A stretch of DNA of 63,588 nt from Thraustochytrium sp. TN22. Its lineage: Eukaryota > Sar > Bigyra > Thraustochytrida > Thraustochytriidae. The translations under genes and the position numbers were made by a program. Below the pieces are notes generated by a model, which was given only the letters and a program-made list of their open reading frames with translations, made no database searches and was not told the origin of the DNA. Below, one piece after another: positions 8,100 through 55,686 of the stretch; within the stretch, counting starts at the first letter, position 1; every line of letters begins with the position of its first letter. The stretch is from assembly GCA_013306675.1 (NCBI GenBank), contig JABLUY010000216.1:1-63588 (forward strand). The letters are read 5' to 3'.

Positions 8100-9674
8100 A
8101 TGCGGCTTGCGAGCCTGCTCGTGCTCGCGACGATCCATGTGGGCAGCGCGCGAGCTTCCGTGGTTTGGTACGAGTCCGAGCAGGCAGAGGAACGCGTGAC
8201 GATCGCGGAGCAAGCGCTGCCGTACAATGCCTATGTGGGCATTCACTCTTCTGAGGACTACCGACCTCGGCGCGAGGGGCTCGCCGTGACGGTCTTGAAC
8301 GAGTCTTCGACAGCCTCATTCTGCGAGCTGCTCCTCGGAAGCAGCGACGCGTTGCCGAGCATGGACGGCCAACTGATCGTTCTCTACGACGACCTGGACT
8401 ACATGTGCAGCGGAGACCTGGGCACTTTCGCCAACGCGCGCCACATCGAGCAGTGGTGCAGGCTCAACGCGACCCTGCTACAGCTGTCCAGGTCCACCCA
8501 GGCCTTCATTTATCAGCCGGGCGACATGTTCCGCGCAGGGCTGGAGGGACCATATGGCAATACGCTGCGGTCTTGTTTCTGGCTGGCCGCAAGCTCGGCA
8601 GTCTCTTCCGAAGCGGCCGCCGCACTTGAGGCTGCGGCTGTTGCACCAGGCTCCTTGGTCGCTGACGTGCAGATGGACTGGACGCCCGTCGTGGACACCG
8701 TGCACACACCGCTCGCGCTGGGTCTCTACGCGACGACAGCGGGCCTCTGCGCCCTCGCCTCGGCACGCGCCGCCTACGTCTTCTGCGCCCGCGTCTCCGA
8801 CGTCAAGTCAAATGTGGAGCACGTGCTCGTGGTGGCGCTCGATCTCTTCGTGCTGGTCGCCATCATGGTGGTACGACTGTTGACGGCGCTGAAGCTGGCC
8901 AGCGCGACCGCGCTGCTCCTCGCATACGAGGACTTCATCATGCTGGGCGCGGCCACGGCCTTCCTCTTGGGCACTGTCTACAGCAGCGCAGCCGACAAGC
9001 TCACCAACGTCGAGCGCAAGCTCACCTTGCGGCGGAGGCGTGCGCTCCTGGGAGTCGCGGGTGCCCTGATGTGCGGCGAAGTCGCCTTCGTGGTCTTGGT
9101 AGTGCACCTGCACACCGGCACACGTGCACTCATCCCGGCCATTGCTGCGGTTATGCTGATCGTGCAATTGATTGCCATCAGCTTGCTCTGGGTTCAGACG
9201 GGCCGCACAACAAGGGTCTTGCACAAGGCTGCCCGCGTTCGGGTCGATGCACAAAGCTCGCGAGTCGTCGTCTCGCTAGAGCGCCGTTTGCGGTTTTGGG
9301 TTCGCGTCTCTGCACTCGCAGCGGCGGGATCCATCGCGTGCCTCGTGCTCGTCTCAACCGGGCTTCTCTTCGCTTCGGACACGGCGTACCAGCTACTTCG
9401 CTTCGCCTTCGATGCATGCAAACTCATTGGCCTGGTGGCCGAGGTCGAGGCGTGTCGGCCGCGGCGGCTTGCGAGCGGCAACAGCTCCTACACGGCTTCA
9501 TTATCAGGACACGGCCGGATCTTCAAGGTACGATGGATCTGGCCAGCGCAACAACTAAAGCAGGCGCGTTCTTCCATCTCCGGCACCGAGCCACTTACAC
9601 TCCCGTCGGTGGTCGCTCCGATCACGACCTCTCCGAGGGAGGGCGGGACTCAGGCGTCGTCTCCTGAGAAATGA
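8100..9674 (+). CDS. Putative seven-helix surface protein, copy 1 (unrecognised family)
   Basis: A 524-residue protein starting at the ATG at 8100, chosen because it begins a clean signal peptide (MRLASLLVLATIHVGSARA). An ectodomain of about 180 residues follows, with four cysteines (about 75, 103, 120, 159) that recur in both paralogs, and N-x-S/T sites. About seven hydrophobic helices then lie near 204-230, 240-263, 269-292, 314-337, 343-366, 399-424 and 428-449, followed by a hydrophilic tail. Family signatures are a DWTP motif before the first helix, a VY..AADKL motif after the third, and K-x-IG..AE...CRP after the last. The topology (outside N-terminus, seven helices, inside tail) resembles a receptor, but I see no motif of any known GPCR class. 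Function unknown; first of three tandem copies. Confidence 0.85.
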   Translation: MRLASLLVLATIHVGSARASVVWYESEQAEERVTIAEQALPYNAYVGIHSSEDYRPRREGLAVTVLNESSTASFCELLLGSSDALPSMDGQLIVLYDDLDYMCSGDLGTFANARHIEQWCRLNATLLQLSRSTQAFIYQPGDMFRAGLEGPYGNTLRSCFWLAASSAVSSEAAAALEAAAVAPGSLVADVQMDWTPVVDTVHTPLALGLYATTAGLCALASARAAYVFCARVSDVKSNVEHVLVVALDLFVLVAIMVVRLLTALKLASATALLLAYEDFIMLGAATAFLLGTVYSSAADKLTNVERKLTLRRRRALLGVAGALMCGEVAFVVLVVHLHTGTRALIPAIAAVMLIVQLIAISLLWVQTGRTTRVLHKAARVRVDAQSSRVVVSLERRLRFWVRVSALAAAGSIACLVLVSTGLLFASDTAYQLLRFAFDACKLIGLVAEVEACRPRRLASGNSSYTASLSGHGRIFKVRWIWPAQQLKQARSSISGTEPLTLPSVVAPITTSPREGGTQASSPEK

Positions 9675-10281
9675 GAAGGCCGTCCAAGAAAGTAGAAATC
9701 ATCACACCATCCACTGCGGCGTCATCTTTTATTTTTCTAAGATGTCCGATCTGGACAGCGGGCGGCGGCCGCCTCGACCCAAAAGACCGCCGTTTCACAG
9801 TCCTGGTGCACTGGACTTGGCAGCTGGCACTGGCGCTGCACGCTGACCGTTCAAGGGGCGAACGGCTCTCGCGGAGCGCTCCTCGATGCCACGGTGCCGC
9901 AGCGATGACGAGCGGCGCGCACGTTTCTTCGTCCGTACGACCTGGCGCTGGTAGGCTAGCTGGTAGCTGGAGAATCTGTTTGACCTCCTCTTGCTGTGCT
10001 GTGCTGTGCGTGCGCCTTGGCGGATCCTCGACTCGCGTGACAGTGAGATGGCGGCCGGGCGCGCGACTCGGACTGGCTCGGGAAAACCCACAGCGACTTG
10101 CCGAGCCAGCAGAAGTTCGACAGTGAGACGAGAAGAGAACGGAATTCTGAGCCCGGGGTAGTAGTAGAGACCTGGCCCTGACCCCAGAGCAGAGCTAGTA
10201 GTGCCAATGCGCCGGCGGTGCACACGAGCTAGGCTGCGCGCGTTGTAGCGCAGTGTGGTGGAGCTGCAGTCCGCTTTTTGT
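9675..10281. other. Intergenic region between seven-helix genes 1 and 2
   Basis: About 600 bp with no supported gene. It should hold the 3' end of copy 1 (a T-rich stretch at 9726-9742) and the promoter of copy 2. Confidence 0.5.
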
Positions 10282-11932
10282 ATGGGTGCGGCGGCGCGGT
10301 GGCTTGGCGCCGTCGCGGCGGCGGCGCTCGCCGTGACGAGCAGCCATGCCTTGCTCGTGCTTCACAGGCCACAGGACGCGGCGGAGGTCCTCGTGGCGGC
10401 GAGAACGCTGCCCTTTTCGACGTTTGCCGGCGTGCGGCCGACGGAGGCCTGGCAGCCAACTCGTACCAACATGAGTGTTGAGCTCGTGGTCGGCGATACG
10501 CTCGCCGCCTACTGTGACTTGCTAACTTCGGCCGCGGAGGAGGACGAGAGCCTTCCAGACCTCGCAGGTCACCTGCTGATGCTTCACGTCGAGACAGACT
10601 TCATGTGCGGCGGTCGCATTGGCACGTACGTGAACATGGAGTACCTTGTGCATTGGTGCCGCCTCAACGCGAGCCTGGTGCTGCTTCAGCAAGCAAACGA
10701 AGTAAGTTGTGCACGCCGCAAGCGGCAGGGTAGCGCAAATACTAGCGCAGGAGTGGGGGAGAGAGGTGGGGGGAGGGGCATATGGCAATAATAGGAGGAA
10801 TGAAAGGAGCGAGAAAGAGGACTCACTCGCGGCCGGGCGTCTCTTCGATGCGCAGATGTTCACAATGCACCCCGGAGACCATTTTTCCTCAGCGCTAGCG
10901 GGGCCTCACGGAGACCGGCTTGCCTCGTGCTTTTTCCTGGACGCGGACTCTCGATTGTCTCGAGAGGCGCTCGAGGCGATCAACGAGCTGCAGGAGAGCC
11001 CCGGCGCATGGCTTGCGGATGCGACTCTGGACTGGGACCCGACAGTGGATGTGCTGTACGACGCTGGCACGAAAGCGACGAGCTACTTGGACGCCATGTT
11101 CGGATTTTCCCTCTCGCTGTGGGCAGCGCGTGCGTTGGCGCAGCGTCTCCGTCTCAGGCTGCGCAAACCGGAGCCGCTCGCGATTCTGGGGCTTAACGCT
11201 ATGTCTTCGATGCTCATTGCCGTGGAGCGCGCGGTGTCCCCGTCACAGGGCTCGATCGGCCCATTGGTGGCCGCCACGCTGCAGGCTTTCTTTTTCTTGG
11301 GGCTAGCGTCGAGCCTGCTGCTCTCAGTCATGTACGCGGAAGCGGCGGACCGTCTCGCGCTTAGCAGTTCACGTCGCGTGCGCCGACGCATGTTGCTGGG
11401 AGCCGCTGCGGGTTTCGTTTGCCTCGAGGTAGCGTCCATTTGGCGCCGCGAGGTGATCTTCACCTCGTCTGCGGGCATGACTCCGTTCGTGGTGCGATGG
11501 GCCATGGCCTCTATCGCTACACAGGTGGTCGCCGTGGTCATCTTCTGGATCCAGATGCGCCGGGCCGCCAGGGTGTTGCGGCTCGTGTCGAAGAAGCCCA
11601 TGTCAAATGATGACCAGCGCAAGTTGGGCCAGATGCAGCTCGCGGAGCAGAGACTGGCTTCGCAAATGCGCATGTCGTTGCTTGGCAGTGCCTTATCGCT
11701 GGCGTGCTTTGGTGCCTTCTCGGTCGGCCTCGTTTACACTTCACAAGCAGCCACGGATGCCCTCCGCTTCGGTGTCGACGCCAGCAAGTACATCGGTCAG
11801 CTCGCAGAGATCCGCGCGTGCCAACCCCTGACTTCCGTGGTGCCACGGCGAAGAACGCAGCGCTCTACCGCCGGTCGCAAGACGGCCAAGTCGCGGCGTC
11901 GCGTGCAGAGGCGCGGGCACCACATCAAATAA
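10282..11932 (+). CDS. Putative seven-helix surface protein, copy 2 (two exons)
   Basis: A 498-residue paralog assembled from exons 10282-10701 and 10856-11932. The ATG at 10282 starts a signal peptide (MGAAARWLGAVAAAALAVTS). Exon 1 encodes most of the ectodomain, including three of the four conserved cysteines, and stops at ...QQANE. Exon 2 resumes with MFTMHPGDHFSSAL, aligning exactly with YAWHPGDRFRS of copy 3 and IYQPGDMFRA of copy 1. About seven hydrophobic helices follow, with the family signatures DWDPTVD, MYAEAADRL and KYIGQLAEIRACQP. The C-terminal tail is short and very basic (RRR..., ending HHIK). It is the only copy with an intron. Function unknown. Confidence 0.85.
10702..10855 (+). 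other. Spliceosomal intron in seven-helix gene copy 2
   Basis: 154 bp, beginning GTAAGT and ending CGCAG, phase 0. Removing it restores alignment with both intronless paralogs. Read through, the frame from exon 1 meets stop codons. The middle is G-rich. Confidence 0.88.
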
Positions 11933-12468
11933 GTTTGCTTTCACTGTGCCGTCAGGTCAGATCAACTCGGCGGCAGAGCAACTGACTGGGACTGAACTAA
12001 AAAAGCAAATAGAGATTGATTTTGTTTGAGGCGCGGGGTAACGGCAAGGACGACTCGGACCCGATTCCTGGGTTGGTCGCGCCTGCGGATCGGTCCCGGC
12101 GATGCCCGTGAGGGCCGTTGAGGCGTGCAGTTGGTCGCTTCGGAGTGCAGTCCGGCTCGCCAGCTTTCGGCACTTGCGTCGCGAGCTCGCGAGCGAGTCG
12201 CCAACGTCACACGGGGGAACAGCTTCGAGTTTCGGAAGTTGGGTTAGTCGGCAACGGCTTTGACACGATCGCCTCTCAGAACGCCTCAGGACCCACAGCG
12301 CTAGTCGACTCGGCCCGACTCGTCGCGCTCGCAAACGACAGATGAGCCGGATCATTCACTGACAGTCAGGCTGACTGATCGTGCAGCGCGCCGCGTCGGC
12401 CCGTCGGTGCGGCGCGTCGCGCATCGCGGGGTCTCGCTCGCTCAATATTCGCTCGCACGGGCGGCGCC
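11933..12468. other. Intergenic region between seven-helix genes 2 and 3
   Basis: About 536 bp without a supported gene. An AT-richer patch at 11990-12030 follows the copy 2 stop and may mark its 3' end. Short TGACAGTCAGGCTGACTGA inverted-repeat-like sequence lies at about 12360-12378. The AATATT at 12443-12448, about 25 bp before the copy 3 ATG, is the only AT-rich hexamer near that start. Confidence 0.4.
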
Positions 12469-14076
12469 ATGCAAGGCGCGGCGCGCGGCGAGCTGCTGGC
12501 GCTGCTGCTGGCACTCGCAGCGCTCGCCTCACTGTGCGGCGTCTGCGAAGGCGGTCTCATCTTACGCAGCTCGGACGGGGCGGAGGTGGAGGTGGCAACG
12601 CCGATCATCCCGTACAACGCCTTCATCGGTGAGGACGTACGGCCCACGGAGAACGTGTGGCCAGCACGCACAAATCTCTCCGTGACTTTGTTGCAGGGCG
12701 ATGTGCTGACGGAGTATTGCACGCTGCTCACGAGCGGAGACGCGTTGCCAGACCTGGCGGGCAATCTGCTTGTGCTGATGTCAGGAACCAACTACATGTG
12801 CTCGGGTCACATCGGGTCGTACGCAGACATGCGATACATCGACTCATGGTGCATGCTAAATGCGACACTCGTCAAGCTCTCGGCGTCTAACCAGGTGTAC
12901 GCGTGGCACCCGGGCGACCGCTTCCGCTCGAGGTTGGAGGGCGAGCACGGCGCACAGCTCCGCGCCTGCTTCCTTGCGGATGGCTCTTCGAGAATGAGCG
13001 ATGAGGCCGAGGCTGCGCTCTCCAAGGCTGAGCTGCACCCCGAGACGTGGCGCGCAGACATCCAGATGGACTGGACCACGCGCGTCGCCCGCGTGCACTC
13101 GTCGCTGAGCGTGGCGCTCAACGTGCTGACGGGCCTCTTTGGATTCGCAACGGCGGGGCAGGCCCTGCGCATCATCGTGGAGCGCGTGAGGCTTGGCAGG
13201 GCCAGCCACGCGCCGGTGCACAAGATTGAGCACTTTGCGGTGCTGGGCATCGACTTTCTGACGGCGCTCACGCTGGCCTTTGTGCGCCTGCTCACGCCAC
13301 TCAACATGACCAGCGCGGTCGCCTACCTGATCGCCTACGCGAACTTTTGCTTCTTCGGCGCCAGCACGACCTTTCTGCTCGCCACTGTATACACGGACGC
13401 TGCGGACCGTCTCTCAGAGGCGCCCCCGCTGGCGAGCCATCGCCGTAAGCAGGTCTTGCGAGCAATCGCCGCCGTCCTGGTCGTGTTCGAAATCGCGTTT
13501 GACGCCTTCGACGCCTCCATCGATACGCGCTACATCGGCTACGTGCCACTCATTGCTGGCTTTATGATCATTGTGCAGTCCATCGCCATTGTTGTCCTCT
13601 GGCGGACGACGACGCGCGTCGCTGGCATCGTCCGAGCGGCGGCGCTCGTCTCGGCAAATTCCAAGGCGAATGCCAGCGCCAGGACCATGCGTCGCGTCGA
13701 GCGCCGGCTGCGCTTCTGGGTCCGCATGTCCGCCTTCGGCGCCATGAGCTCCATCGCCTCGCTCGCAATTGCCGCCACTGGTCAGCTCTACGCCACGCAA
13801 GATGGATTCTACATCGTTCGCTTCGTCTTCGAGACGGGCAAGTTTATCGGTCTCTACGCAGAGATCATGACCTGCCGCCCGTCCGTGTCTGATGCGTCCC
13901 GCAACGGTGTGAGGGCCCGCGGGCGTCCGCACCGCATTTTGCGCCGCTTCGTTGTCCCCTCTGACATTTCCTCTTCACAGGCCTCTGCGCTCGCGATCTC
14001 ACAATCTCATTTGCGCTCTCCCCGCGGCGGCGGCAGCAGCAGCCACGAGAATACCCTCCAGGAAGCCTCGGACTGA
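12469..14076 (+). CDS. Putative seven-helix surface protein, copy 3 (unrecognised family)
   Basis: A 535-residue single-exon paralog starting at the ATG at 12469. A hydrophobic leader at about 8-25 (LLALLLALAALASLCGVCEG) is followed by the shared ectodomain. Characteristic segments are IIPYNAFIG, RPTENVWPARTNLSV, TEYCTLLTSGDALPDLAGN, NYMCSGHIGSYAD, DSWCMLNAT and WHPGDRF. The motif DWTTRV leads into about seven hydrophobic helices with VYTDAADRL after helix 3, ERRLRFWVRMSAFGAM before helix 6, and KFIGLYAEIMTCRP after helix 7. The ~75-residue tail is rich in Arg and Ser and may be phosphorylated. The ectodomain's alternating strand-like segments resemble a protease-associated fold only loosely. 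Function unknown; a surface receptor or transporter are both possible. Confidence 0.85.
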   Translation: MQGAARGELLALLLALAALASLCGVCEGGLILRSSDGAEVEVATPIIPYNAFIGEDVRPTENVWPARTNLSVTLLQGDVLTEYCTLLTSGDALPDLAGNLLVLMSGTNYMCSGHIGSYADMRYIDSWCMLNATLVKLSASNQVYAWHPGDRFRSRLEGEHGAQLRACFLADGSSRMSDEAEAALSKAELHPETWRADIQMDWTTRVARVHSSLSVALNVLTGLFGFATAGQALRIIVERVRLGRASHAPVHKIEHFAVLGIDFLTALTLAFVRLLTPLNMTSAVAYLIAYANFCFFGASTTFLLATVYTDAADRLSEAPPLASHRRKQVLRAIAAVLVVFEIAFDAFDASIDTRYIGYVPLIAGFMIIVQSIAIVVLWRTTTRVAGIVRAAALVSANSKANASARTMRRVERRLRFWVRMSAFGAMSSIASLAIAATGQLYATQDGFYIVRFVFETGKFIGLYAEIMTCRPSVSDASRNGVRARGRPHRILRRFVVPSDISSSQASALAISQSHLRSPRGGGSSSHENTLQEASD

Positions 14077-14771
14077 AGACGATTGTAGCGCGCCGTCTTG
14101 TAACTTACCGCCGTCATACTGCGGATTGGCCGTACAGCATGCATGCATTCTCGAGCGCATTCGATGTGTGTTCTCGAGAGCGTTCTGGTTCACTTCGTGT
14201 TGGACGCCTACTGTTAGAGTAAGAGCAGTAGCGAACGTAACGTGTCGCAACCTTGATGGTACCAGGTGCTCACTCACTGTCTGGCCCTTCTCGTGCATTG
14301 TTGCATCGTTGCCGGCGTGTTGCCGTGCAACGTGACCGGTCGCGACCATGTCTCAGGCTGGCGTTGCAGCGTTGCTCGAATTGAAAGCGAAAGCAAGGCA
14401 AACTCGAAGTGCAGCCGACGGACGATCGCTTACGGCAAGAGCGAACGCGTCGGATTGAGGGCCTAACTCAGAGTACGCGTGAGTGCGCTGAGCGAGTGTC
14501 AGCCCTCGCTCGGGCCTCGAGTCGAGTCGCCCTGCTCTCACGTGTCACGAACGGCCACGCACGCGCGCCCTGACGCTTCTCAGGCGAATCGACCTGACAG
14601 CCTGAGCTACTACTTTCCCGGGCCGCTATCTTCCCACGGTTCGTGTTGCGCGAACCGGCCTCGCTGTCCTCTTCAGCACTGCACGTGAAGCGAGCTGCAG
14701 AAACCAAACCAATCAAAGCGCTCGCTCGTGGTCGCGCTGCAGGCGGGTCGCGCGGCCCACAGCGCCGCAGC
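14077..14771. other. Intergenic region between the seven-helix cluster and the GNAT-PhzF gene
   Basis: About 700 bp, less GC-rich than its surroundings between 14090 and 14250. Contains the 3' flank of copy 3 and the upstream region of the next gene. The frame of the downstream gene is open to 14643, but has no ATG before 14772. No other element recognised. Confidence 0.5.
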
Positions 14772-16271
14772 ATGACGTCCCTGTTCAGGCTGGAGCGCGC
14801 CAGCGCCGCGGGCGTGGAACTGGACGAGCTGGTGGCGCTGGAGCATGCGAGCTACCCGGAGGACGAGGCGGCGTCGGCGCAGGCCGTGGCGTACCGGCGC
14901 GAGGAGGCCGGAGAGGTGTTCTGGGTGGCGGTGGGCGCGGAGGACGGCAAGCTGCTTGGCTTCGTGAACGGGACGTGCACGCACGCATGCCCAGCGGCGC
15001 TGGGCGAGCCCACGGACGCCAGCTCGTACGGGACGCTGGCGCAGCACGTGGCGGGCGGCGACACGCTCTTCGTGCACTCGGTGGTGACGCGAGAGGACCT
15101 GCGGCGGCAGGGGCTGGCGCGGGCCATGCTGCGCAGCTACCTGGACGCCGTGGTGGCCGGCGTGCCGCAGGTGCGGCGTGTGCGGCTGCTCTCCAAGGAG
15201 GCGCTCGTGCCCTTTTACGAGTCGTGCGGCTTTCGCGTGTGCGGCAAGTCGGGCGTTGCGCACGGGCAGGACGCCTGGTTCGAGCTGGCGCAGGAGCTGC
15301 GCGAGCTGCCGATCGCTTGCGTGAACGCCTTCAGCAACCCGGACAAGGCCTTTAGCGGCAATCCGGCTGCGGTCTGCGTGCTGCCCTTCAAGACGCGGTC
15401 GCTGGGCGAGCGCGCTGGCGCGTGGGGTCTGGCCGGCGACGACGGCCTGGCCAAGGACGTCGAGGAGGCCTGCGAGGTCTACATGCGGCAGGTGGCGGCG
15501 CAGATGAACCTGAGCGAGACCGCCTACCTGCGCGATCTGGGCCGCGAGGACGGCGGCAAGGCGCACCGCTTCGAGATCCGCTGGAAGACGCCCACGGGCG
15601 AGGTCGACCTTTGTGGCCACGCGACTCAGGCCACGGCCTTTGCGCTCTTCTCGTCGGAGAGCGGCCTCCTGCCCCCCGGGGCGCTCGACGGCGTCGACAC
15701 GCTTGTCCTTGAATGCATGAGCGGCATCCTGCGTGCCGAGCGCGGAGAGCAACCGGGCACCATCGTGCTCAACTTCCCGCTCGAGGGTATGTCTGAGGAC
15801 CTCCCGGCGTCCAGCTCCGTGCGCGAGCGCGCCATACGCGGCCTGCGCGTTGACCCGGCGCACGTCGTCTTCGTCGGCGAAGGGCGCATGGACGTCATGG
15901 TCGAGGTTGACGACCCAGAACTCGTCGCGAACGCCAAGCCTGACATCCCCGTGATCGCCTCGATCGAGACACGCGGCGTCAACATCACCGCGCGCGCCTC
16001 GCCAGACGCGCCCTATGACTTCGTCAGCCGCTTCTTCGCGCCCGCCGTCGGCGTTGACGAGGACCCCTTCTGCGGCAGCGCGCACTGCTACCTCGCACCC
16101 TACTGGGGCTCCAAGCTCGGCAACGACGAGCTCAAGGCTCTCCAGGTCTCCGAGCGCTCTGGCGCCGTCACCCTCTCAGTCCTCCGCGACACCAAGCGCG
16201 TCGTCCTGCGTGGCGTTCCCGAGCTCTCTTGGACTGGCAAGATGCATCTTGCCCCCTTTCGTCAATCTTAA
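14772..16271 (+). CDS. GNAT N-acetyltransferase fused to a PhzF-family enzyme
   Basis: A 499-residue two-domain protein starting at the ATG at 14772. Residues 1-170 are a GNAT acetyltransferase resembling arylalkylamine N-acetyltransferases. It has EHASYPEDEAAS near 24-35, the acetyl-CoA loop RRQGLA at 111-116 within motif A (VHSVVTREDLRRQGLARAML), and the C-terminal PFYESCGF motif. Residues 180-495 are a PhzF/isomerase-like domain. It has VNAFS....FSGNPAAVCVL, the catalytic-glutamate block NLSETAYL (Glu about 249), TPTGEVDLCGHATQATAF, and a second half with SRFFAPAVGVDEDPFCGSAH. PhzF-fold enzymes act as isomerases/epimerases, but most eukaryotic members have unknown substrates. The fusion suggests that a small amine or amino-acid derivative is both acetylated and isomerised; this is inference. 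No targeting signal is obvious. Confidence 0.9.
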   Translation: MTSLFRLERASAAGVELDELVALEHASYPEDEAASAQAVAYRREEAGEVFWVAVGAEDGKLLGFVNGTCTHACPAALGEPTDASSYGTLAQHVAGGDTLFVHSVVTREDLRRQGLARAMLRSYLDAVVAGVPQVRRVRLLSKEALVPFYESCGFRVCGKSGVAHGQDAWFELAQELRELPIACVNAFSNPDKAFSGNPAAVCVLPFKTRSLGERAGAWGLAGDDGLAKDVEEACEVYMRQVAAQMNLSETAYLRDLGREDGGKAHRFEIRWKTPTGEVDLCGHATQATAFALFSSESGLLPPGALDGVDTLVLECMSGILRAERGEQPGTIVLNFPLEGMSEDLPASSSVRERAIRGLRVDPAHVVFVGEGRMDVMVEVDDPELVANAKPDIPVIASIETRGVNITARASPDAPYDFVSRFFAPAVGVDEDPFCGSAHCYLAPYWGSKLGNDELKALQVSERSGAVTLSVLRDTKRVVLRGVPELSWTGKMHLAPFRQS

Positions 16272-28588: not shown

Positions 28589-29855
28589 AGGCAGGACCGG
28601 CCACGGCCGTAGAGGCTGGCTGAGGAGGTCAAATGGGGTCGCGCCACAATGCCGCGGCGCTAAAAAGCCTCGCTTAGTGGCTGGCTGCCTGTTCGGCCAG
28701 CCAACCTGAACCAGGGCTTGCTTGGCGCCAGTCCACTCGCGGGCGATCAGGTGACCAAGACCGCACTGGCTCAGCTGAATCTCTCCAACTAAAAAGAATC
28801 AAAGCGAGCGCGCGCGGTCTTTGCCTGCCTCTCTGTCGAGGATACCTTGCCAGTTTCGTGGCGAGTCCAAGTTTCATTCGATTCATTCGCCGCTCTCTTG
28901 CTTGAGCACCGCGGCGTCCGCGGCGTCCGCTGGAACCGCCCGCCTAGCTGCGGTTCGGGTTTCGCCGCGTATTGCATTGCTCGATTCAGCTGGGCAGCTA
29001 AACTCGAAGATGCTACCAGTAAAGCTTATGTATTTCCGGGCCTCGCGGGTTGACGCCGGCGCCACCTTCGCTTCGAGCCTTCGACCGCCATGAAAGCCGC
29101 ACGCGGCTCGGCGCCAGCGGCGTCCCGACCCGTCCGACTGCTCCGCAGGCTCCGCTGCGCGCTGCATGGCCTCGGCCGAGTCGCCAGCCAGCCCTCAAGG
29201 GCCGCTTCGCTCCCTCTTTCTCTCAGCTCAGGGCTAAAGCCCGGCTTCACAGGGTCGCGTGCCGCCGCAGCCGGCGACAAACTTCGCCCTCGGAAGCGTC
29301 CCGCGGCTCGCTCTCCATTCGCGGCCCTGCCCCGGCCTGGTGGCGCGGCGCGCGTCGCATCCACGGGCGCCGACCAACGAGCCTGCCGCTACAGGAGCGC
29401 CGACCTGCTGCAGTCTTCAGCAGGCGACGGAGGCGTTGACTTGGCTTGCTTGCCGGCCGCTGAGCGCGCGATCTGCGCGCCGAGCCTGCCAGCGCGCTTG
29501 CATTGATTGGATCGCCTAGTATGAGCCGCGATGTGACGGGATCGCTCGTCACTCGGCAGCGCACTTAGCCCTGAGCCGACTGCGGGCGCGCGGTCACTCG
29601 CGCGAGACCCGCGGACTGCGGGCGCGAATTCAAGTGGCAGTGCGGTCACTCTGGGCGCTCAACGGTTGTCTCTCTCCTTCAGGCTGTCTGTCAGCCTGCT
29701 GGGCTTGCAAGGCTTGGAGCAATGCGAAGCAAAGCTGAGCGGCGCGCCCGCCGGGCTCGGTCGCTCGGGCGCGGCGCGGCGCGCTTGTCGCGCGCTCGCT
29801 CGGGCGCTCGGAGGTGGGCTCACCTGGCTGGCGAGCAGCGGGCTGGCGAGCGAGC

Positions 29856-32800
29856 ATGCGTCCTTCAAGTTGCGCGAGCGCGAGAACGGCGCTCACGCTG
29901 GGCCTGGTCCTCGTGCTAGGCCTGGCGGCAGGCGGCGCGCAGGCGGCTGCGGCAGACCTCGGGTCAAGGTACCGCGTGGAGAACCTGAACAGAGACGTGC
30001 AGGGCGGCGTGCGCGCAGGAGACCTGGTGAGCGTGACCTGCGTCTCGTGCCAGGCGCAGGACCTGACGGTGACGGCGTGGACGGCGCTCGAGGACGGCGC
30101 CGACTTGGTCGAAACCTACGAGGAGGCCCGCACGGCGGTCTTCAGGTTCGCTGCGGAGGGCAAGTATGTCGTGGTTCCAACGACCGAGGACAGCGGCGGC
30201 GCCCCGGTGGCACAGGACGCACTCTTCCTCCGCGTTAGTGCAGAGGCCGTGCACTGTCACGTGTGGCGCGGCTGCTTCACGCTGGCGGCCGACCAAGAGC
30301 TCGAGGGTGTAGACTGCCTCACGAGCTGGGCCTCGCTGAGCGCCGAAGCGCAGGCCAACCTGCGCCTGCGAGTCTGGGTCGGCTCGGCCGACGACCCACT
30401 GCGCACGCCGGGCAGCGCCTTCAACGTCAGCGAGCGCGAGGCCGTGCTCACCGAGGAGATGTACTACCTCGGCGAGCAGGCCAAAGCCACCATCGAGCGC
30501 GGACCCTTTCGTGCGCTCGCCGCGCCGCTCGTGTCCTGGGCGCCCGATTCTGACACATCCGTGAGCGAGTCCGCCGCATCCGCGCAGACCGCCTCCGGCG
30601 TCTACGTGAAGGAGGGCCGCTTTTGGTCTTTTGCACTCGAGTCTGCCTTCGTCGATACCACGACGGTCGACGTCGCTGGCTCCACGCTCGATCTGCGCGT
30701 CGCGGGCCAGTCCGTCAACTCCATGGGGTGCTCCGCCGCCTCGCGCCAGCTCTGGCTCGAGCTGCCCAAGTACACGCCGCCTGCAGCGCCGGCGCCCACT
30801 GACTCGCCGCCGCCGGACGACGACCTACGCGCGGCCGACGTGCTGGCCGTCGATTACTGCGCACCGGCCGTTGTGCTGGCCAGCTCCGAGCCCGCAGCCG
30901 TCTGGCTCGTGCAAGGCGTCGTGGCAGGCGCCGGCGCCGAGGACCTTGGTGCCGCGCTCGTGCGCGTGCCGGGCGCCTCGACGCTGCTCGACGTGGCACC
31001 CACGCGTGGTGGCCTCGTCTTCTTGCACGACGCCGGCCTCAGCCGCCTGGACGCCGCGCTCGAGCGCGGCGCCGCGGACAGCCTCGCGGCGCCCACCGAG
31101 CTTACCGTCGTCAATGGGACTGCGCTGGAGGGCGTCACGCGCCTCGCGGCGCCCATCGGCTGCGACTGGATCCTCGACGCCACCAACCGCACCGCCAACG
31201 ACCGCCTCGCCGCATGGGACGCCGACGCCGACGCCGTCTCGTCCATCACCTTCTTGCGCTTCGCCGCCAATGGGACCACCGTCGTGGCGCGCGAAGTTGA
31301 CCTTGGTGGTACCTACGAGGTCCTGCAGGTACTCCCTCTCATCAGCGCGCGCAAGTCCGTGGCGCTCGTGCGCGCCTCCGGCGACGCCGGCCCGTCCGCC
31401 ATCCTCATCAACGAGATCTCGCAGACCGTCTCGAGCCTCGCGGCGCTCCCGGAAGGCGCGCAGCTCAACTCCACGCGGATCGCTTCGCCCGTGTCGCCCG
31501 ACGGCCAGCTCCTGCTCTGGACCAACGACTCCTTCTACCTCTCGCCCAGCTGCGGCATGTCTTGGCAGCGTCTGGTCTTCACCTCCTTCGACGCCGACTC
31601 AAGCGCCTTCGTCTCGGCCGATGCCATCGATGTCTCCGGCGGCGACGCCATCGCTGAGGTCGCCACCTCGCCCACCAGCCGCTTCCTGCTGCGCACGGTC
31701 GCCGGCCGCCTCTTCGCCGGCGCCTTTGGTCTCCCGCAGGCCGTCGAGCTCTACTCGCCGCTCGCTGCGCCCGGCGCCAACGCCGCCGAGCTTGCCCTGG
31801 CGCTCCAAGCGCGCGCCGACGGCGTCTTCGTCGCGCTTCTCGGTGGCGCCGACGCGCAGGCGCGCACCATCGAGCTCCCCTCGCACGTGCGCGTCACGGC
31901 CTCCTCGCCAGCGACCCTCACGTCGGAGGCCATCGAGGCGCTCGACCTCGCCGAGGCGCTGCGCTGCCCATACATTGAATGGACGCAGCTCTCGCCAGCC
32001 GCCGACGCCTTTTACGCCGACATGAACGACGAGATCGAGGCGATTTTCCGCATTACGCACGACACCGACATGAACGGCATGCACATCAGCTACCAGACCT
32101 CGGACCGCACGCTCCTCGATATGCACGTCGGCGACGAGACCATCAAGACCAGCGCGCACGGCCGCCTCACGCGCCGTGACCGCAAGGTGCGCCTCGTCGT
32201 GCCGCCCGACATCAGCTCACGAACAGGCGTTGGCGCACAGGACCAAGCCTCCGGCACCGTCGTCGTGCGCGCTGCGCCGATGCGCTTCACGGCGTCCTGC
32301 CCAGCCACCACGCGCATGCTGCAAGTCCAGGTCGGCTGCCCGCGTGGCCGCCACCTGCGCTACTCGCCGCCCGCTGCCTACAGTGAGCCGTCCACCTCGG
32401 TCGTCACTTCGGCCTGCGACGAAGAGGCCGCTGCCGCTGCCACGGAGGAAGAGGCCACCGCCATTCGCAAGGCCTGCGTCTGCCGCCGCTACGAGAACTT
32501 CACGATCTCGCTGCCACGCGACATTGTCGACGAGGAGCGCCTCACGACGCAGGCGACCCTCTTCGACCGCCAGCTCTCCTGGTCCGAGGACACCGTCGAC
32601 CTCAAGTTCGACGTCAACACTTACGGGTGTCCCACCTTTGTGCCCTACACCTATAGCTTCAAGCCCGGCCTGGAGATCTGGGACAACGATGTCAAGGTCA
32701 AGGACGTCGACGCCGACTTTGTCGTGCTCGAGGCCAACGCGCGCCTCGACTACACCTTTGGCCTCACCGCATCCAGCGCCGGCTGCCGCCGCACCCCAGA

Positions 32801-33233
32801 AACCTGGTCCGCCAAGCTCGCCGCGAACGCGGACCCGAGACAGGCGTGGACCTCGCAGAACCACCGCTCGTGCTTCGCCGACCCAGACGAGTCCGACGCC
32901 GACGCCGACGCCACCGCCTGGGCCGCCCTAACCTACGAGATTCTCAACGCCTCCTCCGCCAACTACGTTAGCTTCAAGTCCACAACGCTCAAGGACACAC
33001 CCTACGAATTCCTCGCCGTCGTCGTCGACCCGGACTACAGCTTTTGCATGCTGCAGGCCCGTTTTGCCGTCGAGCCCTACGGCATCCCCATGGACGGCTT
33101 CACCTCCTTTGTCATTGTCTTTATCGTCGTCCTCTGCAGCATGCTCATGCTCGCCACAACCTACTTTATTCACCGCCGCGACATTCTTGCGCACTCCATG
33201 GATACGGAAGCCGAAACCAAGAAGCAGCTTTAG
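29856..33233 (+). CDS. CatSper auxiliary subunit (beta/delta/epsilon type)
   Basis: A 1125-residue type I membrane protein. The ATG at 29856 starts a signal peptide (hydrophobic core LTLGLVLVLGLAAGG). A very large ectodomain follows, and a single helix near the C-terminus (FVIVFIVVLCSMLMLATTYF) with a short basic/acidic cytosolic tail. The central ~300-700 region has repeated beta-strand blocks consistent with the propeller of CatSper accessory subunits. The last ~250 residues carry the family's stem signature. This includes YGCPTFVPYTYSFKPGLEIWD, a VVLEANARLDYTF block, a CRRTPETW block, the SQNHRSCF block, YEFLAVVVDPDYSFCMLQARF and VEPYGIPMDGF. CatSper is the flagellar calcium channel complex that drives hyperactivated motility. 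This protein would sit outside the flagellar membrane around the pore. Which of the B/D/E/G subunits it corresponds to cannot be decided here. Confidence 0.82.
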   Translation: MRPSSCASARTALTLGLVLVLGLAAGGAQAAAADLGSRYRVENLNRDVQGGVRAGDLVSVTCVSCQAQDLTVTAWTALEDGADLVETYEEARTAVFRFAAEGKYVVVPTTEDSGGAPVAQDALFLRVSAEAVHCHVWRGCFTLAADQELEGVDCLTSWASLSAEAQANLRLRVWVGSADDPLRTPGSAFNVSEREAVLTEEMYYLGEQAKATIERGPFRALAAPLVSWAPDSDTSVSESAASAQTASGVYVKEGRFWSFALESAFVDTTTVDVAGSTLDLRVAGQSVNSMGCSAASRQLWLELPKYTPPAAPAPTDSPPPDDDLRAADVLAVDYCAPAVVLASSEPAAVWLVQGVVAGAGAEDLGAALVRVPGASTLLDVAPTRGGLVFLHDAGLSRLDAALERGAADSLAAPTELTVVNGTALEGVTRLAAPIGCDWILDATNRTANDRLAAWDADADAVSSITFLRFAANGTTVVAREVDLGGTYEVLQVLPLISARKSVALVRASGDAGPSAILINEISQTVSSLAALPEGAQLNSTRIASPVSPDGQLLLWTNDSFYLSPSCGMSWQRLVFTSFDADSSAFVSADAIDVSGGDAIAEVATSPTSRFLLRTVAGRLFAGAFGLPQAVELYSPLAAPGANAAELALALQARADGVFVALLGGADAQARTIELPSHVRVTASSPATLTSEAIEALDLAEALRCPYIEWTQLSPAADAFYADMNDEIEAIFRITHDTDMNGMHISYQTSDRTLLDMHVGDETIKTSAHGRLTRRDRKVRLVVPPDISSRTGVGAQDQASGTVVVRAAPMRFTASCPATTRMLQVQVGCPRGRHLRYSPPAAYSEPSTSVVTSACDEEAAAAATEEEATAIRKACVCRRYENFTISLPRDIVDEERLTTQATLFDRQLSWSEDTVDLKFDVNTYGCPTFVPYTYSFKPGLEIWDNDVKVKDVDADFVVLEANARLDYTFGLTASSAGCRRTPETWSAKLAANADPRQAWTSQNHRSCFADPDESDADADATAWAALTYEILNASSANYVSFKSTTLKDTPYEFLAVVVDPDYSFCMLQARFAVEPYGIPMDGFTSFVIVFIVVLCSMLMLATTYFIHRRDILAHSMDTEAETKKQL

Positions 33234-44614: not shown

Positions 44615-47427
44615 GAGGAGGAGGAGGATAGTGAGGTGGAGACGCCTGTGCTGGGCGGGCTCTCGCACGAGCTCCTGCACGAGCTGCTCGAGTGGTTGCC
44701 CGGCGAGAGCCTGCTCGCCTTGGGATGCAGCAGCTTTGGTATGTGAAAAGTTGTCGCTCGCTCGCGCTGCGCCTGATAAACAAACGAGGGGACTGACGCT
44801 GGAAGCGTTGCTTGTACCGCGTTGCTACAGGCCTGAGCGTCTTTTGCGGCGAGGAGCCGCTCTGGATGGCGCTATGCATCCGGGAATTTGGCAGCGAGCT
44901 CCGGCGCGAGGCGACGTGGAAGCAGTCATGGGCGCTCGGGCGAGGACTGCGGTGGCGCGGGGACCGGCGCAAGGTATTGCTAAGACCGCCGCCGAGGTCA
45001 AGGCAGCGCGCGCTGGTGTCTCGCTTCCTCAGCAATCGGCTGTACTGCTGCCATGTGGACCTGGGCGGCTTCGTGCCACAGAGAGAGCACATCGAGCGCG
45101 TGCACATCGCAGACAAGCGGCGGCTGAGTGTGGATGCCTTTGCGGAGGAGTTCGACCTGCCGCGCAAGCCTGTGGTGATTGTCGGCGCGGCGGACGCCTG
45201 GCCGGCGCGACGCAAGTGGACGCTGTCGCAGCTCGCACGGAGGTTCGGCGGCAGCGTGCGGTGGCAGATGTCGCACGGCGTGGAGGACAAGGCGCCCTTG
45301 GAGATGACTCTGGAGGCGTATGCGGCGTACCTGCGCGTGCAGACGGACGAGGTGCCGCTGTACATTTTCGACGCGGCGTTCGGGGATAAGGCGCCGGAGC
45401 TGCTGAACGAGTACTCGCTGCAGGGCTTCCAGGGTCTCTTCGCCGAGGACTATCTTAGCGTACTGGACCGCGCCGCACGGCCCAAGTTCAGGTGGTTGGT
45501 GGCCGGGCCGGCGCGCACGGGTGCGCCCTGGCACCGGGACCCAGGGTACACGAGCGCGTGGAACACGTTGCTGCAGGGCCGCAAGCGGTGGGCGCTGTAC
45601 CCGCCGAGCCGTGCGCCACCGGGGGTTGGCGTGGAGTACGCGGATGAGGAGGGTGAGATGGTGGTGGATGTGGCGACGCCGTCGAGCCTTCGGTGGTTTT
45701 TGGATGTGTACCCTCAGCTGTCGGCGGAGGAGCGTCCGCTGGAGATTGTGCAGAATCCGGGGGAGACGATCTTCGTGCCGGCCGGGTGGTGGCACCTGGT
45801 CCTCAACCTGGAGGAAACGGTAAGCGTAACGCAGAACTTCGCGAGCCGCGCGAACCTGCGCGCTGCGGTGCACGACCTGCGACGCGATCACGGTGCGCGC
45901 TTCGTGGAGGAGTGGGCGTACCAGGTGCGGCTGCGGGCGTCGGCATTGGCGCCGCGTATGGAACGCGCGCTTATCCCGTACCGCGAGGGTTTTTCGTCGG
46001 CGACTGCGTATGCGCTTTCGTTCCGGGATGCAGGCGCGTGGGCGGAGCGCGTGGGTGCGGTTCTACGGCACCACGGCATCCTGCCCCGGAGCAAGCAAGA
46101 GCAAGCTCAAGAGAACCAGCTCAAGCACGAGCGCGAGCACGAGCACAAGCACAAGCACAAGCGCAAGGAAGCGCCGCTAGCGGCCACGGCGATCCAGGCG
46201 CTCTCGCGGCGGCTCAACCCGGCGTTCGCGCACGTGGAGGCGGGCGTGGTGGTGAAGTTCTTCTCGCACTTTGGCGCCGGCGACCTCAGCGCTGGCCTGG
46301 CTTGTGTGGAGTCCGGGCAGGCGAGCGACGGCTGGGATGCGTATCGCAGCGAGGTGGACGCGCTGCGGGCGCTGGCGAGCGAGCGAGCAGTCGAGGTGCC
46401 GCAGCTCGTGGCGCACGGGACCTACTTTGGAGAGGGCCACGGCGAGCCGTGGCGCTGGCCGTACGTGGTGCAGACACGCGTCGCAGGCGTCTCGCTCGGC
46501 GCCGTGCGTGCCATTGGCACGGCGACCGCCTCGGATCTCCGCGGCGTGGCACACTGGCTCGGATTGCGCGTGCGTGCGCTGCACGAGAGCGCGGCGCTGC
46601 GAACCGCACTGCGAAGCGTGGGCAGCTACGACGCCTTTTTGCGCGTGCAGCGCAAGCACGCGCTGAGCTCGCATTGGCGGCGCGGCGAGCTGCCGCGCAG
46701 TCTGCTGGAAACCATGGACGGCTTCGTGGCGCACCACTGGCCGGCGGTCTGCGGGCTGGGCGTGCACATGCACGTGGGCCTGCACGGCGACCTGCAGGAG
46801 GAGAACGTGATGGTGGAGAGCGGCGCGCTCTCGGCGGCGGCGCGCACAGCGTCCTTGTTGCGGCGCGCGTGGGCGCCGCTGCTCGAGGCGGGCGACGTCG
46901 GCGGCGACGCGTGCTTGCTCGAGGCGCTCGTGCACCGTCTGGTGCACGAAGACAAGGTGCGGCTGGGCGCGCTGGCGGGCGCGGACGACGGCCTGCTGGC
47001 GGCACTCGGCGTGCCGCGTGGCCTGCGGCCCAGCCTCTTGGCGACCCTGCGCGCCGGCCCCGTGGCCGAAGCGGACGTGGGCCTGGTGCGGCCATCGGGG
47101 CTCATCGATTTCGCAGACGCGCGCGTGGGCGACGCCCTCTACGACATGGTTGCGCTACATGTGAGCGCGCTGGCCTGCGACTCGAGTCTCTGGTTGCACT
47201 TTGTTCAGGCCTACGGCGGCGCGGACCACCTGAGGCGCAGGCACCGCCGCGACCCTTCCGCCGTCCTCATGTGTCTGACCCTGCTGCACCCATGCGACGC
47301 GGTGCATGTGGCGGCCAAGCACCGGCCTGAACTCTTTTCCGGGGCGCTTCCGTGGCATTCCATTGCCGCTAGGCTCTTTCCGATGCCCGATGCCGCGGCC
47401 CCTTCGTTAGCAAGCTCATTCGTGTGA
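44438..47427 (+). CDS. F-box / JmjC / kinase-fold (APH) protein, JMJD6-like oxygenase
   Basis: A 965-residue protein from exons 44438-44738 and 44831-47427. Residues 43-58 are Gln-rich. An F-box at about 73-120 spans the splice junction (LSHELLHELLEWLPGESLLALGCSSF then GLSVFCGEEPLWMALC). The JmjC domain (about 210-445) is JMJD6-like with an intact iron triad: His335 and Asp337 in APWHRDPGYTSAW, and His422 in FVPAGWWHLVLNL. The partner blocks NTLLQGRKRWALYPP and SVTQNFAS are present too. The C-terminal third is an aminoglycoside-phosphotransferase-type kinase fold with HGDLQEENVMVE as catalytic loop and LIDFADARVGDALYDM as metal-binding segment. The F-box should recruit an SCF ubiquitin ligase; the JmjC part is expected to hydroxylate or demethylate protein side chains. 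A similar three-part architecture exists in plants and some fungi. Basic KHKHKHKRK-type patch between the domains. Confidence 0.92.
44739..44830 (+). other. Spliceosomal intron in the F-box/JmjC gene
   Basis: 92 bp, beginning GTATGTG and ending GCTACAG, phase 1. Splicing makes the codon GGC and joins the two halves of the F-box. Reading through reaches a stop two codons into the intron. Confidence 0.92.
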
Positions 47428-53362: not shown

Positions 53363-54970
53363 TTATTCACTGCACAGTGCTGGCAAGAGAGCGCCGAGGC
53401 TGCTCGTGCTGTACTGGAGCATGCTGCTCCCCTCGGTCGGCGAGTACGAAGACCCGCTCAGGGGCACGTAGACAATAGTCACGCCGGCTCCTTCCGAGGC
53501 CTCTGCCGCGACGGCTTCGGCGCAGGTCTGCAGCTCCTGCGGAGTTGGCGTTGTGCTGTCGAAAAACTCACCGCACAACTTCATGAGTTTCCGGTCGGCC
53601 TTGCTCACCGCAGCCTCGCCGGTCTGGAAGACCACGATGACCTTGAGCGAGTCGCGGTGTTGCCTGGAGAGGAGCCTGACCGCCTTGCGAAGGGCCAAAG
53701 GCAGGTTGGATTCCAGCTCCGCCTTATTTGTGCAGGCCTTTGTCACGACCTTGTTGATTGCCGCCTCGGCCTCGGCCGCGGAGCTGCCATCGCGGAGCTG
53801 GGAATGGGTCTTGACCCCGCCGCCAAAGACAAGCGCGGCAACGCGGTCTCCACCGTCAAAGTCGAAGTTCGCGGCTAGCGACTTGGCCCAAGAGGCGGCC
53901 TCCGCGCAGGTGGCCGATGGGCTCTCCCCGCTCGCGTCAATGGCCATGACCACGTCGAAGATGCGGCACTGCTTCGCCTCAGTTGGGGCCTCTGTTGGCG
54001 CTTCGGTCGGCGCACAGGACTCGGCCGGCTCCGGGGCGATGAAGGTCTCGATCCTCTTCGGCTGCTTTGGTTGCTCGCCGCACAGTGGATTGGCGCCGAA
54101 TGAGACGTACTCGAGCTTTCTGAGCTTCTTGAGATTCTCCGGGATCTTGGAGAAGGCGTTGGAGTAGGCATTTAGATCACGGAGCCGCTTGAGCGCTCGG
54201 TACCCAGACGGCAGCTCCGAAATCTCGTTGTAGGAGAGGTAGAGCCCGGTCAGCCTCGTGAGTTGTGTCAGGCCGTCTGCCAAGCTCGAGAAGCCGTTGA
54301 TGCCCAACTGCAACTCGACGAGGCTCGTCAGCGTCCACATGCCCTCGGGGAGAGCGCTGAGCAGGTTGGTCGAGACATCCAGGGTCCGCAACTCTTTGAG
54401 GCCTTGCATCGGCGGCAGCGCGGTGAGCCGGTTGTGGGAAATATCCAAGGCGGTCAGCTTGGTTAGCGCCGAAACAGTCTGGGGCACCGCAACGAGATCT
54501 GTGTTGCTCTTTAGTCTGAGATACGTTAGCTTCGACAGTTCGCCGATGCCCCCCGGGACCGCCGTGAGCCCCAGATTGTACAGACGAATGGTCTTGAGGC
54601 CTGTCAGCGCGGAGATGCTCTCCGGCAGCGCCGTCAATGCCATGGTCGAGTAGGCGGCAAGCTGCGTGAGCCGTGTCAGCAGGCCCATGTCTGACGGCAG
54701 GCTCTCCAGCATCGTCGAGAAGCCCCATATGAAGGAGCGCACTCTGCCCGTGTCCAGGCCATCCGCGCCGCCAATGCCGGGGAACTCAACGTCCGTGCCC
54801 AGGCATTGGACAAGGACAGCCTCGTTCGCGGCCAAGCCGCAGCGCCAGCCGTCCGACTGGCAGTACGAGCACGCCGTTGCGCCGACCACGACCGCTGGCG
54901 CCGAAGCAAATAGCAACGCCAACAGCGCCGCCGTTGCTAGCGCATGCGCTCGCCACGTCATGGCCGCCAT
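53363..54970 (-). CDS. Secreted leucine-rich-repeat plus VWA-domain protein
   Basis: A 535-residue protein. The ATG at 54970 begins a clear signal peptide (core ALATAALLALLFASAPAVVVG). A short Cys-containing cap (ACSYCQSDGWRCG) and a block of about nine LRRs of the bacterial/plant-like LxxLxxLxLxxN.LtaLP type (TALPESISALTGLKTIRLYN, LTALDISHNRLTALP) follow. A capping Cys (NPLCGE), a tandem APTEAPTEAPTEA linker, and a von Willebrand factor A domain (about 350-520; CRIFDVVMAIDASGES) complete it. The MIDAS motif reads D-A-S-G-E instead of DxSxS, so metal binding is doubtful. No membrane anchor at the C-terminus, so it is probably secreted or wall-bound. LRR and VWA modules both bind proteins, suggesting adhesion or recognition. 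Separated by only 34 bp from the stop of the convergent RibD-like gene. Confidence 0.88.
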   Translation of the reverse strand: MAAMTWRAHALATAALLALLFASAPAVVVGATACSYCQSDGWRCGLAANEAVLVQCLGTDVEFPGIGGADGLDTGRVRSFIWGFSTMLESLPSDMGLLTRLTQLAAYSTMALTALPESISALTGLKTIRLYNLGLTAVPGGIGELSKLTYLRLKSNTDLVAVPQTVSALTKLTALDISHNRLTALPPMQGLKELRTLDVSTNLLSALPEGMWTLTSLVELQLGINGFSSLADGLTQLTRLTGLYLSYNEISELPSGYRALKRLRDLNAYSNAFSKIPENLKKLRKLEYVSFGANPLCGEQPKQPKRIETFIAPEPAESCAPTEAPTEAPTEAKQCRIFDVVMAIDASGESPSATCAEAASWAKSLAANFDFDGGDRVAALVFGGGVKTHSQLRDGSSAAEAEAAINKVVTKACTNKAELESNLPLALRKAVRLLSRQHRDSLKVIVVFQTGEAAVSKADRKLMKLCGEFFDSTTPTPQELQTCAEAVAAEASEGAGVTIVYVPLSGSSYSPTEGSSMLQYSTSSLGALLPALCSE

Positions 54971-55686
54971 GGTCACGGCGATGGACACGGTTTCGATTCT
55001 GCCGCACCTGCGCCGTGGTGGCGCGACCGGGCTTTGGCAGACAGACTTCCCGTGATGCACACTACTACAGTAGCGATCAGTGCGTGCAGTGCAGCTAACT
55101 AAGTTAGCAAGCAGTGCCTACTAGCACCAACCCCCGTCTTCCACTGCCAGTGGTGCTGCGGTGCCAGTGGGCTACCCTGACTTGCCGCTCGGGCCGTCCG
55201 GTGGTCATCAGTCGCGCAACGGCGCGATGACTTGCTTTCCACACTGCACTGGCAGAGAACACACGGCAGCCCGGGACGCAGCGCGAGCTGAAGGACCTGC
55301 GCTGTGCGTCAGGTCGCGCCCGTGTTTTTGTGCGCGCTCTCGCTTTGACACCGCGTCCGCAGCGCATTGGATCGTCCCGAAGGGCGAGGGCGCCCTGCTG
55401 GCCGGCACGATGCGCCACGAGAAAATGTGAAGGGCCGTCGAGCAAGTTTATGGCTACATGGCGGTGCTGGGCACAGAGTTCGGCGTCTTGCCCAACACGG
55501 AGCGGACCTGGTTCTTGAAGCGCGATGACGCCGGGCTAGGCAGCTCGAGAACGGCTGAGAGCGCGCCGCAAAGTCGCCTGTCGCAGTCAGCGGCTCGCAT
55601 AGCTATCACAGAACCAGACGCAATCGTTCACGGTCACTTTTCAAGTTGCTTTGGCTGGCCTGGATTCTTCAAACATTAACTGAGTT
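54971..55686. other. Intergenic region between LRR-VWA and RBBP5 genes
   Basis: Upstream region of the LRR-VWA gene and 3' flank of RBBP5. A 73-codon plus-strand frame at 55458-55679 has an ATG but no recognisable features. A TTTCAAGTTG element lies at about 55636-55646. Confidence 0.45.

Follow-up and report, generated by a model that had tools for sequence, protein, structure and literature searches.

A tandem gene family encoding predicted seven-helix, GPCR-like proteins with a four-cysteine ectodomain in Thraustochytrium sp. TN22

The window analyzed here is the whole of a 63,588-base stretch (contig JABLUY010000216.1; GC content, 67%) of the genome of Thraustochytrium sp. TN22, which comprises 453 contigs (37.9 Mb). 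Its plus strand carries three adjoining genes (A, B, and C), arranged head to tail, whose products share a hydrophobic leader-like stretch, an ectodomain, a multi-helix membrane domain, and a basic tail (Table 1). A first-pass annotation had described these genes as a tandem triplet of an unrecognized, receptor-like family; all three were confirmed at the annotated coordinates, and one further copy, paralogue D (514 residues), was located on contig C232 (13773-15317, equivalent to L007:2274-3818). Searches of the whole genome, which give lower bounds for the number of paralogues, used A, C, and D as queries; each recovered A to D and, apart from one match with an E value of 0.09, no further gene. 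Proteins A and C matched with an E value of 1e-94 (41% identity), and pairwise identities in a MAFFT alignment of the four proteins were 30.7 to 39.2% across 472 to 510 aligned residues. Judged by these comparisons, the similarity among the copies, which are established as open frames and as paralogues, is far beyond chance. GC content at codon position 3 was 0.76 to 0.80 in all four genes, and overall GC content was 0.60 to 0.63 in the putative intron of gene B and in four measured flanking stretches, the first of which overlaps a neighboring frame. The intron of gene B is the sole frame-keeping splice printed when donors from 10690 to 10719 and acceptors from 10830 to 10869 were scanned, and stretches of B that align with its paralogues flank it on both sides; from these observations we infer splicing at this site.

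Table 1. Positions in the window of the three tandem genes and their parts
Feature	Position	Strand	Description
Gene A	8100..9674	+	524 residues, single exon; leader, four-cysteine ectodomain, multi-helix membrane domain, basic tail
Gene B, exon 1	10282..10701	+	Leader and first part of ectodomain
Gene B, intron	10702..10855	+	GT-AG, phase 0; deduced from the reading frame and from alignment with the paralogues
Gene B, exon 2	10856..11932	+	Remainder of ectodomain, membrane domain, tail rich in Arg and Lys; protein B, 498 residues
Gene C	12469..14076	+	535 residues; copy modeled by AlphaFold2
Gene C, ectodomain	12553..13083	+	About residues 29-205; Cys 84, 111, 128, and 167; sequon N131
Gene C, seven-helix membrane domain	13102..13872	+	Residues 212-468; GPCR-like fold in model

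The ectodomains were compared across the four copies. Four cysteines, previously annotated as conserved in the triplet, are invariant in all four proteins, and the ectodomains have no further cysteines outside the leader; the four probably form two disulfides. An NAT or NAS sequon is likewise present in each copy, 35 of 177 ectodomain positions are invariant, and the mean pairwise identity is 0.40. The leader-like stretch, which begins all four proteins, would be cleaved. The signatures attributed to the triplet (PGD.F, DW(T/D), (V/M)Y..AAD(R/K)L, and K.IG..AE...C(R/Q)P) were all found in A, B, and C, but two of them are altered in D, which keeps PGD.F and DW and reads VYRSAVNRL for the third and KILNAVSE at the start of the fourth. 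The ectodomain modeled alone reached a predicted local distance difference test score of 40.9, too poor for fold assignment. A protease-associated (PA) domain was considered, but its profile scores did not stand out in a shuffle comparison: in hmmsearch, 20, 70, 110, and 17 of 250 shuffles reached the scores of A, B, C, and D, respectively, and in hhalign 10 of 100 shuffles reached the score. In the Pfam search, neither D nor the separated ectodomains matched PF02225, the PA domain.

Next, the membrane domain was analyzed. With the leader left out, hydropathy showed five membrane segments in B and six in each of the other three proteins; an extra seventh segment in A is an Ala-rich stretch of the ectodomain and was left uncounted. 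The AlphaFold2 model of C has seven confident helices. The last of these, which appears in that model alone, contains the conserved residues R451, K458, and E465. Thus, the annotated count of about seven helices is borne out by the model of C but not by hydropathy, and an equal count across copies holds by hydropathy for A, C, and D, with B one fewer and the model confined to C. Single conserved charges (R273 and E341) lie in or beside other helices. The tails have 8 to 14 Lys/Arg and 0 to 5 Asp/Glu residues across the four proteins. The seventh helix would cross the membrane, because such a basic tail is expected inside and six crossings would place it outside. In each of the four proteins, Lys/Arg counts of the loops fit an N terminus on the outside and a tail on the inside, and this orientation is predicted from the loop charges together with the leader-like N terminus and the conserved ectodomain sequon. 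The third cytoplasmic loop (35 to 38 residues) has 5 to 9 Lys/Arg residues, and the second extracellular loop is about 9 residues long. The tails had been singled out as the most divergent part of the proteins; they are divergent (mean pairwise identity, 0.21), but transmembrane helix 1 (TM1; 0.19) and the first and second extracellular loops (0.12 and 0.13) are more so.

The model of C was compared with known structures by VIA-align and Foldseek (best 50 of 1000 and best 50 of 921 matches). All 50 VIA-align matches listed from the PDB are G-protein-coupled receptors (GPCRs), and the Foldseek matches listed are likewise all GPCR-type receptors; sequence identities to class A receptors, such as the mu-opioid, DP1, P2Y14, and apelin receptors, were 7 to 13%. 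No seven-helix fold other than that of GPCRs was among the PDB matches listed. Among viral structures, many of the best 50 matches are titled viral GPCRs and some are plainly unrelated. The best viral match was an uncharacterized protein of Pithovirus LCPAC102 (A0A481Z571; E value, 2.3e-4; root mean square deviation, 16.6). The first-pass annotation had proposed looking for seven helices and an outside N terminus together with either no match or matches to a receptor fold only, and this is the combination that the sequence searches, the model of C, the loop charges, and the listed PDB matches gave; the contrary outcome, a confident match to a transporter or enzyme family, appeared neither in the sequence searches nor among the listed structural matches. 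The model predicts seven helices in the arrangement of the GPCR superfamily and supports a receptor reading at the level of predicted fold.

We consider it probable that genes A to D encode seven-helix receptors of the GPCR fold, with a leader, an outside ectodomain that has four conserved cysteines and a glycosylation site, a helix bundle, and an inside basic tail. Both the GPCR-like fold and the orientation are predictions, and the proteins look like a small family of the GPCR fold that has no name in the libraries searched. They may represent a further such family in a genome already rich in GPCRs rather than the undescribed system for which the first-pass annotation made them a candidate. 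The following points weigh against this assignment: (i) Pfam and profile comparison established no sequence-level link to any GPCR family; (ii) the motifs DRY, NPxxY, and CWxP were not found in the membrane domain in a pattern scan of the four proteins; (iii) the seventh helix is amphipathic and invisible to hydropathy; (iv) the best Foldseek E value is 1.1e-3, and none reaches 0.001; (v) query-normalized template-modeling scores are 0.31 to 0.37, low because the ectodomain and tail are unmatched; (vi) the fold evidence comes from one copy and a shallow alignment of four sequences from one genome; and (vii) AlphaFold2 might also give a GPCR-like bundle for an unrelated seven-helix protein modeled from an equally shallow alignment.

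Pfam was searched with A to D and with separated ectodomains and membrane domains. No GPCR model was among the matches listed at E values of up to 10, although HMMER filters discard most matches above 0.1; specifically, 7tm_1, 7tm_3 (class C), GOST_TM (PF06814), and Dicty_CAR (PF05462) had no match in A, B, C, or D. The search returned five sub-threshold chance matches (Lsm_interact, DUF4212, DUF5993, CD20, and DUF3611), and NCBIfam returned two (2-dehydropantoate 2-reductase and an SCO4225 membrane protein), neither of which indicates a credible family. A profile search of PDB sequences found one chain, titled as a designed fiber (E value, 0.83), and phmmer with C found none. No relatives were found in viral contigs, GTDB genomes, or phages, collections that are almost wholly prokaryotic or viral and say little about other eukaryotes. 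Word searches of open-access text found no paper on the family. The first-pass annotation had recognized no GPCR, GOST, or channel motif, and the libraries searched gave no credible match.

Genome-wide GPCR searches covered class C, GOST_TM, and Dicty_CAR and found 37 of 38 class C matches over the cut-off, three GOST_TM places, and two Dicty_CAR places; neither the GOST_TM nor the Dicty_CAR places include any of A to D. Profile comparisons by hhalign used 24 of the 38 class C matches, all three GOST_TM genes, and one of the two Dicty_CAR genes. The probabilities were 0.9% (P = 0.064) with class C, 0.1% with GOST_TM, and 0.2% with Dicty_CAR. As a yardstick, class C against GOST scored 0.1%, and class C or GOST against Dicty_CAR scored 0.6%. 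These comparisons exclude close kinship only, because even established GPCR families do not recover one another by this method. The class C matches lie on L044 to L067, on contigs C169, C222, C437, and others, with several close together on one contig.

GOST proteins (GPR107/108, TMEM87, and GPR180/TMEM145) and Hi-GOLD proteins share with the present family a layout of leader, ectodomain, seven helices, and cytosolic tail, and GOST proteins may work as trafficking or sorting receptors of the secretory pathway. The four proteins could be GPCR-fold trafficking or sorting receptors that act independently of G proteins, with an ectodomain that binds lumenal cargo and a tail that recruits a coat or adaptor. 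The layout and the basic, variable tails fit such a role. The ectodomain data speak neither for nor against a GOLD domain. However, the family has neither a GOST_TM match nor profile similarity to the three GOST_TM genes that the genome has of its own, a result tempered by the yardstick above, and the structural matches listed are ordinary GPCRs. We regard a trafficking role as unlikely.

Class C receptors resemble the family in joining an extracellular domain to seven helices and are abundant in the same genome, so the proteins might be very divergent glutamate-type receptors that arose from the class C set of the organism and whose ectodomain has been reduced. In the best local profile alignment, family positions 31 to 96 run colinear with class C positions 25 to 91, and a hidden Markov model of 24 class C sequences placed B above the HMMER inclusion threshold in a set of only the four proteins (E value, 0.0049; 4.5 bits; bias, 4.0). 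Yet 4.5 bits is negligible in a search of any size, A, C, and D fell below the threshold (E values, 0.29 to 4), and 20 of 120 block-shuffled versions equaled or exceeded the class C profile score. The family also differs in its ectodomain of about 180 residues and in the missing 7tm_3 match, and a class C origin appears decidedly improbable.

Least probable of all is a transporter, channel, or membrane enzyme with a helix arrangement that merely resembles that of GPCRs, for which the conserved charges R451, K458, E465, R273, and E341 could serve transport or catalysis but against which stand five Pfam chance matches that include no transporter or enzyme family, listed PDB matches that are all receptors, and the absence of GxGD and PAL from all four proteins. 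The pattern scan for those two motifs thus gave no support for a signal peptide peptidase-like (SPPL) intramembrane protease. A rhodopsin with K458 as the invariant TM7 lysine is also unlikely: microbial rhodopsins have D-x-x-x-K spacing, the spacing here is D/E-x-x-K, and there was no Pfam rhodopsin match.

If the four proteins are receptors of the GPCR fold, they differ from class A receptors not only in their low identity and missing 7tm_1 match but also in their short second extracellular loop and in the motifs of the membrane domain. In class A receptors, [DE]R[YHFW] ends TM3, CWxP lies in TM6, and NPxxY lies in TM7. Across the four proteins, [DE]R[YHFW] matches only once, as DRF in the C ectodomain. 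The TM3 end reads DKL, DRL, DRL, and NRL in A, B, C, and D, respectively, and an invariant glutamate (E411 of C) lies ahead of the hydrophobic stretch of TM6. We conjecture a switch in which this TM3-end triplet (D/N-R/K-L) faces E411, perhaps as an ionic lock, and acts together with the R...K...E series of TM7. A more ambitious proposal, that the family is a separate GPCR class with a new or unrecognized ligand-binding four-cysteine ectodomain fold, its own switch replacing DRY/NPxxY, and Gα coupling, is tentative, and we are inclined to doubt it.

A working mechanism for the favored surface receptor can be outlined. The ectodomain, or the helix bundle beneath it, would bind a ligand; binding would shift the helix bundle; and the basic third cytoplasmic loop, with the cytoplasmic ends of TM3 and TM6, would engage a Gα of the organism. 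Such a partner exists, since the genome has 15 Gα matches over the cut-off, at least 8 of them near full length. The tandem copies would have arisen by an old duplication and later diverged in the tail, loops, and TM1. Because these parts diverge among otherwise similar copies, different inputs or outputs are suggested, and a division of labor in which the copies sense different cues or couple differently is probable on this reasoning. The organism is likely a heterotroph, because no light-harvesting family match was found in the genome and given the GC content of the window; bacterial or prey cues as ligands are a guess from this habit. A large open frame at 29814-33233 (plus strand) of the window has a CATSPERD/E C-terminal domain (E value, 5.6e-34) of the type found in auxiliary subunits of the sperm channel, and the domain is compatible with a flagellated cell.

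Other GPCR families without an earlier name have been described. An eLife 2025 survey (PMC12716839) reports new eukaryotic families (RSF, GPRch1-3, and GPCR-TKL/K), identified from clusters of seven-helix domains and from structure prediction, and counts six families in choanoflagellates that fall outside all earlier ones. As described there, RSF carries an NxLQxxMNxL motif and no added domain, and the ends of GPRch3 are short and unstructured; these descriptions set both apart from the present family with its four-cysteine ectodomain. If the present assignment is true, it would extend the variety of known GPCR designs to proteins with their own ectodomain and no classical switch motifs that are visible only by structure prediction, and it would provide candidates for chemosensing in a probably motile, heterotrophic flagellate. 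It would also suggest that sequence libraries undercount protist GPCRs, in line with that survey (PMC12716839), whose six new choanoflagellate families make such finds welcome but no longer startling.

Several other features were observed. Three of the Gα matches lie within 8 kb on contig C205 (8293-15946; two on L038 and L041). At locus L034, a PA domain precedes nine hydrophobic segments, and the motifs YD, GLGD, and PAL are present; the product looks like an SPPL-type intramembrane protease. Next to paralogue D, a frame at L007:3951-4535 (minus strand) resembles ribosomal protein uL22, and upstream of D is an EGF-like repeat protein (L007:21-1070, plus strand); both were recognized by eye. 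Elsewhere in the window, single open frames on the plus strand join a GNAT acetyltransferase domain to a PhzC-PhzF domain (14643-16271) and a Cupin_8/JmjC domain to an APH-type phosphotransferase domain (44812-47427), and a frame at 53366-55060 on the minus strand combines leucine-rich repeats with a von Willebrand A domain.

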